Source: a virus. Taken from it: a stretch of 26,843 nt of DNA. Position numbers and translations under genes: made by a program. Each line of letters begins with the position of its first letter. Position 1 is the first letter of the stretch. The stretch spans positions 1 to 26,843 of the IMG/VR virus record IMGVR_UViG_3300029922_000267; one strand, given 5' to 3'. This document shows positions 4,701 through 21,352 of this stretch, in pieces. The notes below the pieces were generated by a model, which did no database searches, was not told the DNA's origin, and was given only the letters and a program-made list of their open reading frames with translations.

Positions 4701-5555
4701 ATGCAAGTCAGATTGACCGGCTTGCAGCGAACTGCCATGGCGGAAACGCTGAAAGAGCGGATTAACGCCGCTTGTGTCAAGCTGTATTCAGAAGGGCCAC
4801 GTTCGCACCTTGGCGCTTCTGAAATTGGCGAGAAGTGCAAGCGGCGGCTTGTCTATTCCTTTCGCTGGATGGGGCGCGAAGTTTTTGACGGCCGCATGCT
4901 GCGATTGTTCAATCGCGGCCACCGCGAAGAAGACCGCATAATTGAATGGTTGCGCGCGGCCGGCCTGACTGTTCACAGTCACACGCCAGACGGTAAGCAA
5001 ATTCGCATATTTCAAGACCAGCATCACGGCGGATCGCTTGACGGTGTAGCACTGTTGCCGCCAGAAATGGCACTTGATATGCCGCTTGTGCTTGAAATAA
5101 AAACGCACAACTGGAAATCTTTTCGCAACCTTTTAGCCAACAAGGTGCAATTAGCTAAGCCAAAACATTTTAGTCAAATGTCGGAATATGGGTGGTATCA
5201 CTCAATCCAATATGGTCTTTATTTTGCCGTGAACAAAAATGACGATGACATTTATATTGAAATTGTTGAGCTTGATTTTGCACACGGCGAAAGCCTTTCC
5301 CGCAAAGCGCAAGAAATTGTTTTTGCAACAGTGCTGCCCGGCCGGGTGGCAGGAAGCGCCGCGCATAGAGATTGCGAGTTTTGCCCCATGGTGCCGATTT
5401 GTCACAACGGCCAACCGGCAGAAAAAAATTGCCGCAGTTGTGCGCATTCGCGGCCAGTGGCCGGTCAGGATTGGCACTGCGCAAAATTCGGCAAAGATAT
5501 TCCAAAATCCGAAATTCCAAAAGGTTGCCCCATGTGGGCAGAATTTGGCAAATGA
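4701..5555 (+). CDS. PD-(D/E)XK exonuclease of the Cas4/RecB type with Cys-rich C-terminus
   Basis: A 284-residue protein. The core has the nuclease order: helix with ASEIGEKCKRR (39-49), LFNRGHREEDRI (69-80), GGSLDG with D114, LEIKT with E132 and K134 (the E-x-K motif), then SIQYGLY with Q170. This is the RecB/Cas4 superfamily; such phage enzymes resect or trim DNA ends for recombination. The C-terminal third has C225/C228 and C234, which could serve an iron-sulfur or zinc site as in Cas4. It also has a distinct module C244-x2-C247-x-H249, C260-x-K-F and C276-P, which recurs in two downstream proteins. The start at 4701 has only a weak ribosome-binding site and probably relies on coupling. 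It overlaps the helicase gene by ATGA. Confidence 0.82.
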   Translation: MQVRLTGLQRTAMAETLKERINAACVKLYSEGPRSHLGASEIGEKCKRRLVYSFRWMGREVFDGRMLRLFNRGHREEDRIIEWLRAAGLTVHSHTPDGKQIRIFQDQHHGGSLDGVALLPPEMALDMPLVLEIKTHNWKSFRNLLANKVQLAKPKHFSQMSEYGWYHSIQYGLYFAVNKNDDDIYIEIVELDFAHGESLSRKAQEIVFATVLPGRVAGSAAHRDCEFCPMVPICHNGQPAEKNCRSCAHSRPVAGQDWHCAKFGKDIPKSEIPKGCPMWAEFGK

Positions 5556-18610: not shown

Positions 18611-20350
18611 CTAATGCGAAACGCCGTCTGCAAGATGATTTATAGCTGTATCAACGTGCGTTGTCATGTGCTGATCGACCGCCTTGGCAATGTCGCCAGG
18701 GTCGTTAGATTGGGCATTGATTGTGCTACCCGCCACGTTGACATTATTAACCACCCCCGGCGCCTGACCGGCGGCAGCAAGGCTGGCGGCCGTCTGTGAC
18801 GCAAGCGGGGTGTGCGTGGCATCTATGGCGGCCTGCGCGGCGGGCAGATCGGGCACAGCGCCGCCTATGCCGCCGGGCACGGGCGCGGGTTGCTGGCCAT
18901 GCAGCGGGAAAAGAAAGCCCGGCTCTCGGCCGCCAATAATGGCGCCAGCGTGCCGCAGTTCCCCTTTAATCGCGCCGCCGAACTCGCCAAGCTTGTCAGA
19001 AATAGTTCCGGCAATGTTTTTGGCGCCATCAATAATAGCCTTCAAACTGCCGAATTTTCTTTCAAGAAAATCAATAACTTTCCCAACCTCATCGCGCAAA
19101 GTGTGAAAAGCGTTAATGGGATCAAGCACAACATCCGAAAGAAACTTGAAAAACGATTTGCAAAATTGCCAAAAATCACCAATGATTGTTTTTACTTCTT
19201 TGAAAACTTCGCCAACAATCGGCCAGCGTTTCAGAATTTCGCCAGTGACGGAATTGCTACCTTCCTCAAATTTTTTAATGTCTTCGTAAACAAGCGCAAA
19301 CACGGCCGACAAAGCCAGTATGACAGCAATCACGGCGGTTATGGGGCTAGTCAGGATCAAAAACGCACCAATAAGCAAATTTACGCCGTAACCAAGCAAC
19401 GTCACCGGGCCGATTGCTGCAAGCGCGCCGATGACAATTGCGGCAAAAAACCCCTCAATCAAATATTTGTGCGCACTTATAAACTCAACAAGTTCTTCAA
19501 CCGCATCAAGGAATTTTTCAAGAATTGGCAAAAGATACGTGTCAAGTTCGACCGTCAGCGTATGAAAAAGCTGCTTAACGTCATCCCATTCAATGTTGAA
19601 TTTTTCAGCCGCTTCCGCATCTTCGGCAGTGACAAGGCCGAGTTTCTTTTGACGCGCAAGCAACTCATCTAGTTCTTTGCCGCCGCGCTGTAGCAGCCGA
19701 ATTGTGCCTTCGTCAAAACCAATACCGCGCAAAGCGCCAGCGGTTTCTTGCTTGCTTTTACCTTCGGTTGCCTTTGCCAGTTCCGGCAGCAGCGTAAACA
19801 AGTCTTTTGCTTTGCCCTTTGCATCCGTCATACTCACGCCAAGAGCCGTGAAAAAGGGAAGAATGCGGCTTTGCCCGGTTTCTTCAAACCGGGTTAACTG
19901 ACGGGTGACGCCTAAAATGCTTTCGCCAAAAGCTTCCGCACTGCCGCCCACACGCTTTGCAGCGTTGCCCCAGGCGTCTAAAACTTCCGTTTCAACCCCT
20001 ATTGATCGCGCGCGTTCGCCTAGCTTGTCAGATTGTTCCGCAGTTTCAAAAAAATTGTCAACAAGCTTTTCAACAGCAAACAAAGCTTGGAATGCAGCGG
20101 CAACTTCAAGAGCGTGTTCGATTAGGGTTTCGGTCAGTTCCCCCGCGTGTTCTTTGATAACGTCAAAGCTTTCTGCAACTCGGCTGTTGGTTTCTGCAAT
20201 CCTGTGCCCGGCCTGTTCACCAACCCGGCCGGTCGCTTCCAATTGCGTTGCTGTTTTTTCAGCCGAAGCTGTCGCTTCGTCTTGTGCCCGCTTGGTTTCA
20301 GTAGCCCCTTTGTTTTCAAAAAGGATTGTGAATGTGTCAAGCAGGCTCAT
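18611..20350 (-). CDS. Tail tape measure protein
   Basis: I use ATG 20350, because AAAGG is 6 nt upstream and it overlaps the frameshift product's stop by ATGA; it gives 579 residues. The N-terminal 120 residues are charged helix (coiled-coil-like, KRAQDEATASAEKTATQLEA). A long helical region follows. A hydrophobic stretch from about residue 300 to 370 (FFAAIVIGALAAIGPVTLL, FLILTSPITAVIAVILAL) holds two or three membrane-type segments, as in tape measures that enter the host membrane. The C-terminus is Pro/Gly/Ala-rich. It sets tail length and passes with the DNA. At 579 residues it is rather short, pointing to a tail of modest length; about 0.15 nm per residue in the known families would suggest a tail near 90 nm (inference). 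Confidence 0.88.
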   Translation of the reverse strand: MSLLDTFTILFENKGATETKRAQDEATASAEKTATQLEATGRVGEQAGHRIAETNSRVAESFDVIKEHAGELTETLIEHALEVAAAFQALFAVEKLVDNFFETAEQSDKLGERARSIGVETEVLDAWGNAAKRVGGSAEAFGESILGVTRQLTRFEETGQSRILPFFTALGVSMTDAKGKAKDLFTLLPELAKATEGKSKQETAGALRGIGFDEGTIRLLQRGGKELDELLARQKKLGLVTAEDAEAAEKFNIEWDDVKQLFHTLTVELDTYLLPILEKFLDAVEELVEFISAHKYLIEGFFAAIVIGALAAIGPVTLLGYGVNLLIGAFLILTSPITAVIAVILALSAVFALVYEDIKKFEEGSNSVTGEILKRWPIVGEVFKEVKTIIGDFWQFCKSFFKFLSDVVLDPINAFHTLRDEVGKVIDFLERKFGSLKAIIDGAKNIAGTISDKLGEFGGAIKGELRHAGAIIGGREPGFLFPLHGQQPAPVPGGIGGAVPDLPAAQAAIDATHTPLASQTAASLAAAGQAPGVVNNVNVAGSTINAQSNDPGDIAKAVDQHMTTHVDTAINHLADGVSH

Positions 20351-20897
20351 TTTACGCCTTTCGCGGCCTTTTTCATCGCATACCATTCATTGAAGCGATT
20401 GACAGCAATAACTTCAAAAATATCAAAGGCGTCTTCTAGCGTTAGTTCTGTTTTAAGTTCGCGGAGCGTTGCCTTATTGCTTCCGATAATTGCCCCAATA
20501 AGGGGGTCAACGTTGGGGAAATCTTGTCCAACATAGTCCGCACGGTATTTGCGAAGAAAGTTGAGATTTCCCCTTTGCCGAAAAAACTTGTATTGTATTT
20601 CATCATTTCGATTTCAATACGCACAAGCGTTTCGTAATCGGGGACATGGTTGTCAACCAACGCGCGGGTCTTCAATTCCAGCACGTCACCGTTTGGCATC
20701 GGCACGCCGACGAAACACATAAGCTTCAGCATTATGGCTTCATTGGCCGCGTAATCCCCAACTTTCGGCACAGAAGTCAGCGGATAACCGGCAACAATTT
20801 CCCGGCCTGGAATAGCCGGAAAACGGGAAATCACATATTTTCGCTCATCCCCGCGAAGGGTTTTGACGATGATTTCCTGCGGATCAAGAAGCGCCAT
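20347..20897 (-). CDS. Tail assembly chaperone, -1 frameshift product (GT/E+E'-like)
   Basis: The fused form shares residues 1-106 with the frame 0 product, slips back one base at TTTTTTC (20586-20580), and continues as codon CGG at 20580 for 77 residues to TGA 20349-20347; total 183 residues. The -1 frame is open throughout. It encodes a well-ordered stretch: LRKYRADYVGQDFPNVDPLIG, then SNKATLRELKTELTLEDAFD, then VIAVNRFNEWYAMKKA. This 'D-F-P-x-V-x-P-L-I-G ... LED ... N-E' sequence looks like a conserved second chaperone domain, and it has no start codon of its own with a ribosome-binding site. The stop overlaps the tape measure start by ATGA. The scheme equals lambda G/GT and P2 E/E+E'. Reading the extension as a separate gene is the alternative, and is unlikely. 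Confidence 0.85.
20442..20897 (-). CDS. Tail assembly chaperone, frame 0 product (G/E-like)
   Basis: A 151-residue protein that starts at ATG 20897 in a TAATG overlap with the tube gene. It has the usual place between tube and tape measure, and the mixed alpha/beta start (EIIVKTLRGDERKYVISRFPAIPGREIVA) seen in myophage tail chaperones, followed by helices. Codons 104-106 are AGT TTT TTC and contain the slippery heptamer T TTT TTC. Most ribosomes would go on to the stop at 20444-20442. A minority would slip back by one base and make the longer form listed separately. Both forms coat the tape measure while the tail tube assembles, and are absent from the mature virion in known systems. Confidence 0.85.
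   Translation of the reverse strand: MALLDPQEIIVKTLRGDERKYVISRFPAIPGREIVAGYPLTSVPKVGDYAANEAIMLKLMCFVGVPMPNGDVLELKTRALVDNHVPDYETLVRIEIEMMKYNTSFFGKGEISTFFANTVRTMLDKISPTLTPLLGQLSEAIRQRSANLKQN
20580..20586 (-). promoter_or_regulatory. Slippery heptamer T TTT TTC for -1 frameshifting
   Basis: Minus-strand TTTTTTC (20586 to 20580) lies in the X-XXY-YYZ register of the frame 0 chaperone (AGT TTT TTC = codons 104-106). Both anticodons can re-pair after a slip by -1 (TTT TTT). No firm downstream hairpin was found by eye; a weak CGCA/TGCG pairing is possible. Confidence 0.85.
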
Positions 20898-21352
20898 TAG
20901 CTCGCCGCTTCCGTGCGTGACGTGCTTTCAAACGTGAAGGTGTAAACCTTCGTTTTCAAACGCCCCGCGCTTGACACACTCGGGCCGGGCTGCCCGGCCG
21001 TCATGATGCCGCTTTCAAAAGTATTTGTCGCGCCGCTTGGAAAAAGCGCGACAATTTCAATCACGTCGCGCGCGGAAGTTTTGCCCTTGCCAACCCGATT
21101 GGCGTCAAAAATGATGCCAAGGTTAACGTCATCGTCAGAACCTTCAATGACAGCAATTTTGACTTCAGTTGCAACCGCTTTCGTCCAAGTGATCAAATCG
21201 CCGTTAAGACCAACGGCGCTTTCACCAATCTTAATTTCCGGCAAATCCAATGCGTCAGCGTCATCGGCAAACGCAGTCAAATTGAAACCGTTTGGGAATG
21301 TGTTACTTGCGGTGACCGTCACAACAAGCCCAAAACCAGAAACATTTTCCAT
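20897..21352 (-). CDS. Tail tube protein
   Basis: A 151-residue beta-rich protein, the usual size for a small tail tube subunit. ATG 21352 has AAAGG 9 nt upstream. The run FNLTAFADDADALDLPEIKIGESAVGLNGDLITW, then VAVIEGSDDDVNLGI, RVGKGKTSARDVIEIVALFPSG and AGRLKTKVYTFTFES matches small myophage tube proteins: an acidic loop, then strands, then a 'GRLKT-x-Y-x-F-x-F' ending. Hexamers of it form the inner pipe through which DNA passes. Its gene follows sheath, with a 64-nt gap holding a long hairpin, and is TAATG-coupled to the chaperone gene. Confidence 0.82.
   Translation of the reverse strand: MENVSGFGLVVTVTASNTFPNGFNLTAFADDADALDLPEIKIGESAVGLNGDLITWTKAVATEVKIAVIEGSDDDVNLGIIFDANRVGKGKTSARDVIEIVALFPSGATNTFESGIMTAGQPGPSVSSAGRLKTKVYTFTFESTSRTEAAS

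Follow-up and report, generated by a model that had tools for sequence, protein, structure and literature searches.

Comparative sequence evidence for a −1 programmed frameshift in a phage tail assembly chaperone gene

Introduction

P2 E/E+E′ is a myovirus tail gene with a −1 shift. In phage lambda G/GT, a −1 programmed frameshift supplies the minor long chaperone that links the tape measure and the tube (PMC5009743), and in two HK97-like tail chaperone genes shifting has been measured at 6% and 7% (PMC3711429). A case has also been made for a −1 shift, and for a C domain that had gone unnoticed, in the TAC-N and TAC-NC proteins of the Vandenendeviridae and Andersonviridae (phage Adele; PMC12846349). 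For the training set of the PRFect study, slip sites lie on average 26 nt before the 0-frame stop; for the Xu set the mean is 36 nt (PMC10885494).

The window analysed here, a 26,843-nt stretch of IMG/VR record IMGVR_UViG_3300029922_000267, carries on its minus strand a chaperone locus that resembles lambda gpG/gpGT in the position of the gene before the tape measure, in its predicted −1 shift and in its predicted short and long isoforms (PMC5009743). It differs from lambda in that the 0-frame runs 45 codons past the slip site, a distance of 135 nt compared with the PRFect means of 26 and 36 nt, and in a stem predicted at +6. The long overlap of the two frames, estimated at about 45 codons in a preliminary description of this DNA and found here to be 45, underlies the likeness to P2 E/E+E′ drawn there, which is one of overlap length. 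With the Vandenendeviridae and Andersonviridae the locus shares a conserved putative −1 shift at a poly-T site and a C domain omitted by routine annotation; their motif, GTTTTT, lies near the end of TAC-N, whereas T TTT TTN in the window lies 45 codons before the stop and is followed by the predicted stem. The lambda G/GT strategy is the reading that fits all of the evidence, so the locus would join an already known type of tailed-phage frameshift, that of lambda G/GT and P2 E/E+E′. This reading would supply the missing long isoform for a widespread family of tail modules in myoviruses and prophages. The GenBank records of this family give the short ORF only, or the extension as a separate gene, and leave out the longer protein. 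Comparison of relatives further supports a predicted stem that begins 6 nt after the slip site of a tail chaperone gene, and the heptamer-less clade would serve as a natural experiment in which slip sites change while the fusion protein stays.

Locus architecture and reading frames

The 0-frame tail assembly chaperone gene, TAC-N (20442..20897, minus strand, read 20897..20442), encodes 151 aa in 151 codons and is assigned from the ORF reading, its position between tube and tape measure, the PHROG matches of relatives and the model fold. All elements of the preliminary description are reproduced to the base. Specifically, the slippery heptamer T TTT TTC (20580..20586, minus strand) lies in register at 20586..20580, running from the third base of codon 104 to the end of codon 106, exactly as described. 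The −1 frame is open from 20613 and continues for 77 codons beyond the heptamer to a TGA stop at 20349..20347. This extension (20347..20580, minus strand), the putative C-terminal domain of TAC-NC, is delineated by its frame, PHROG matches, an alignment of 64 cluster representatives and synonymous constraint, and would give a long product of 106 + 77 = 183 aa, the length given earlier. The sole ATG, GTG or TTG in the open −1 frame of the window is the ATG at 20376, at codon 68 of the 77, in agreement with the earlier statement that the extension has no free-standing start codon with a ribosome-binding site.

The chaperone gene sits directly before the tape measure and after the tube, which is the lambda G/GT-type position and recurs in annotated relatives. 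Upstream lie the tail tube gene (20897..21352, minus strand; Pfam PF22764 E217_Gp32, 1e-55), a DUF3383 sheath gene and, upstream of the sheath, the major capsid gene; downstream lie the tape measure gene (18611..20350, minus strand), assigned from its ORF and the tape measure starts of relatives, and genes for a Dit-like protein, a Pam3_gp18-like plug, an E217_GP41-like hub and a Baseplate_J wedge. The tape measure ATG at 20350..20348 (MSLLDTF...) overlaps the TGA of the extension as ATGA, as previously noted. A longest-ORF call places the tape measure start at ATG 20386, inside the extension; MS(I/L)LDTF is the N-terminus of the tape measures of relatives, which point to ATG 20350 as most likely the real start. 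A second IMG/VR contig is identical to the window across the 5,000 bases compared.

Sites of the form XXXYYYZ in register are not rare by themselves, with 31 among the 8,501 codons of ORFs picked by hand from the window, so the case rests on conservation in relatives. Elsewhere in the window, at 5372-5555 on the plus strand, an A AAA AAT near 5421 in ORF 4701-5555 opens into a downstream helicase-like ORF; a shift is improbable there because the likely helicase start is ATG 5552, with a 4-nt overlap.

Relatives and their annotation

The composite 183-aa protein matches 16 phage records. Searches with the extension alone, in which the heptamer formed no part of the patterns, contributed a further 80 viral and 30 genome loci and account for most of the relatives, with uneven database coverage. 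Loci from the extension and chaperone searches were pooled with the phage records and clustered at 80% chaperone identity, giving 77 clusters. In 76 of these the frame of the extension is −1 to that of the chaperone, the remaining one being Burkholderia phage Bm1. In the latter, a single ORF (L064, 2438-2920) fuses the extension to a diverged N part with no shift, and it sits between the baseplate hub and wedge genes rather than at the tape measure. Aeromonas phage Gekk3-15 has a clear relative of the N part (L065, 2465-2887; 1.6e-40) in a different gene order, and no extension was detected there.

Within the close family, only the 0-frame ORF is annotated in Yersinia phage P744, Erwinia phage RF1, two Bordetella phages, Stenotrophomonas phage B2, Plectonema phage Lbo240-yong2 and Pseudomonas phage KLEP17-4. 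The extension is called a separate ORF in the Obolenskvirus phages Brutus (2411-2629) and AB1 (gp85). For the Acinetobacter phage Brutus (L184, 1962-2629), it is recorded as a separate hypothetical ORF despite an in-register T TTT TTA and an open −1 frame; in AB1 (L183, 9-227), it is likewise annotated as a separate hypothetical ORF.

Conservation of the heptamer and dual-coding constraint

Among the 76 clusters with a −1 extension, 73 carry T TTT TTN in register (TTC in 42, TTT in 28, TTG in 2 and TTA in 1), so that an in-register slippery site stands before an open −1 extension, as in the lambda G/GT type, and the frameshift reading of the preliminary description gains support. That description had named, as the observation that would speak against a shift, relatives in which the heptamer is lost and the extension has a start codon of its own; such relatives are not found in the main family. 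The conserved homopolymer run is T6 or T7, and three clusters encode F-L instead of F-F with the T run still kept. A T-ending Ser or Gly codon followed by TTT is observed in 72 of the 76 clusters, compared with 10.6% expected from the codon usage of the same genes upstream. The corresponding binomial P is about 5e-65 to 1e-64 with clusters taken as independent, which they are not fully, and the P values are descriptive because the clusters are related.

Codon identity between same-residue pairs is 1.02-1.08 times expectation over codons 5-103, rises to 1.69 at codons 104-106 and stays at 1.6-2.4 thereafter to the end of the 0-frame. The jump at codon 104 indicates that the second coding begins at the slip site or very close to it. 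In two more distant phages the heptamer differs and the extension is still in −1. In Vibrio phage V039C an in-register A AAA AAG separates homologues of the N part (4.8e-17) and of the extension (1.1e-21). In Obolenskvirus Brutus a homologue of the extension (6.5e-11) follows T TTT TTA, and the −1 frame is open across the annotated gap.

Predicted downstream stem

A feature absent from the preliminary description is a predicted stimulatory stem, separated from the heptamer by the 6-nt spacer GGCAAA (20574..20579, minus strand). Its 5′ arm GGGGAAATCT (20564..20573, minus strand) and 3′ arm AGATTTCCCC (20515..20524, minus strand) form a 10-bp stem in which GGGGAAAUCU (20573..20564) pairs with AGAUUUCCCC (20524..20515), together with inner helices; one of these, a 6-bp inner hairpin (20537..20555, minus strand), comes from single-sequence prediction only. 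The fold in the window has a minimum free energy of −24.9 kcal/mol (z −3.4), and the two arms are further delineated by compensatory changes and RNAalifold.

A folding scan of the family with 36-nt windows in 73 clusters, with 40 shuffles per window as background, gives a mean z of −1.81 at offset +6 alone, with values of about −0.5 to +0.4 elsewhere. Across relatives, the arm near +6 pairs at varied distances, with ends mostly at about +37 to +40, +48 to +56 and +62 to +64. The mean best stem score is 17.1 when each sequence keeps its own partner and 12.5 when partners are swapped between sequences, where none of 300 swaps exceeds 13.3, and at fixed register at least 7 pairs form in 10 of 73 clusters against 1.3 expected (maximum 5). 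In addition, nine sequences that pair in the register of the window show both-side changes in 7 of 9 pairs (17 cells compared with 4.9 in shuffles), and RNAalifold recovers the same stem in this long-range class. The nine were chosen for that pairing, so the partner swap is the fairer test and, like the +6 scan, is unselected. In the class of relatives with local hairpins (A4), covariation does not exceed shuffles and RNAalifold gives no consensus; the claim of covariation is therefore confined to the long-range class, to which the window belongs.

Family and predicted fold of the two domains

The 0-frame protein of the window alone matches no Pfam or PHROG model, and neither it nor the extended protein has a Pfam match even at E 10. 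Some relatives of the N part match PHROG tail-assembly-chaperone families. The extension, for which a search against phage E′/T-type chaperones had been proposed, matches PHROG 3976 (1e-11), 18181, 4774 and 20369, and the 183-aa form matches the tail assembly chaperone family phrog_20369 at 5e-8, consistent with a C domain of TAC type. Profiles of both parts against sequences of solved structures return only unrelated matches.

The N part and the extension were modelled separately rather than as one 183-aa chain. In the AlphaFold2 model of the 0-frame protein (64 sequences), the first 100 residues are confident, with strands and helices, and the C-terminal helix is uncertain. VIA-align relates this model to ORF19 of a V. 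cholerae PICI (Z 9.1), YqbN (3KLU, Z 6.4) and the tail assembly chaperone gp13 of HK97 (2OB9, Z 6.1); the last two are alike in predicted fold at an identity of only 6-11%, and score above mostly unrelated long-helix matches and below Z 8, the safe level of VIA-align. Together with the PHROG matches of some relatives, these scores point to a TAC fold for the N domain. In Foldseek against the PDB, unrelated kinases rank above 2OB9 (E 1.1), and a second look with VIA places three small phage-related chains on top; among viral models, matches to the 0-frame model include several chaperones as well as a phage Maja tape measure chaperone (2e-6). The extension is modelled as a helical domain with individually weak Foldseek matches (best E 0.005), which include ORFs of Serratia phage SMP and Myoviridae ctxpQ22, phages that also match the N part. 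Its fold further matches a 64-aa ORF of PAK_P1 (E 0.11, prob 0.99).

Proposed mechanism and alternative explanations

On the strength of these comparisons, translation from a single start codon very probably yields both TAC-N (151 aa) and, through a −1 programmed ribosomal frameshift, TAC-NC (183 aa). TAC-N would come from the majority of ribosomes, which stay in the 0-frame to the stop at 20442. TAC-NC would come from a minority that are held at the RNA stem 6 nt downstream with two Phe-tRNAs on UUU UUC, shift back by one base to UUU UUU and read on in the −1 frame to the stop at 20347. If the isoforms act like lambda gpG/gpGT, the N domain common to both would coat the tape measure and the C domain would recruit the tube protein. 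The frame, the heptamer and its conservation, the dual-coding constraint and the predicted stem are read from sequence; we infer that ribosomes do shift, how efficiently they do so and what each isoform does.

The extension might instead be a separate small gene with its own start, as the annotations of Brutus and AB1 have it. Some ATG, GTG or TTG, a possible start, lies in the open −1 frame ahead of the conserved block in 48 of 76 clusters, but the other 28 have none there, and in the window the first such codon comes only near the end of the extension. Moreover, constraint sets in at the slip codon and not at a start codon, the Brutus frame is open across the annotated gap behind an in-register T TTT TTA, and Bm1 holds both parts within one ORF, which makes a separate gene very improbable. 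A chance overlap that is not expressed has in its favour that open −1 frames of at least 77 codons follow about 7% of codons in the hand-picked ORFs of the window; it is nonetheless close to untenable, given that the extension is conserved past the 0-frame stop and has PHROG family matches of its own, and that synonymous sites in the overlap are constrained.

Slippage of the polymerase on the T run, rather than of the ribosome, could yield the same −1 product, and is slightly less improbable than a separate gene while still quite unlikely. The conserved element is indeed a homopolymer run of T6 or T7, with A6 in V039C, but a stem that starts exactly 6 nt on the 3′ side of the heptamer suits a pausing ribosome and would not be expected if the polymerase slipped, and runs of 6-7 are short for such slippage. 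Programmed −1 shifting by the ribosome is thus the preferred reading.

Relatives that depart from the canonical site

The −1 extension is also kept in one clade, likewise absent from the preliminary description, that lacks both the canonical heptamer and the stem; the heptamer is thus not needed throughout the family. The clade comprises Yersinia phage P744, Erwinia phage RF1 and several IMG/VR contigs, and two of its loci (L192 and L193) are copies of a single sequence. Its site has the form S TTC TTC G(A/C)A AAG TTY, and folding over 60 nt gives no excess of stem in the three cluster representatives (z 0.4 to 1.6). In the three heptamer-less clusters the extension is intact in −1, with no ATG, GTG or TTG before the conserved block, and codon constraint begins at about the same place. 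The clade might make the same −1 fusion by shifting at a non-canonical sequence; the likeliest is A_AAG within G(A/C)A AAG TTY, immediately downstream of where the heptamer was lost. We hold this proposal tentatively and at somewhat less than even odds; conservation of A_AAG may instead be explained by dual coding. C_UUC_UUC or U_UUC_UUC was rejected as the slip site of this clade, as the base before TTC varies (T, A, C). L189 retains T TTT TTC, and its near-twins L188 and L190 have TCT TTC TTC. In a further relative (L051, 3001-3531), the heptamer is intact and a downstream indel puts the end of the extension in the 0-frame (177 aa), through either a real fusion or a sequencing error.
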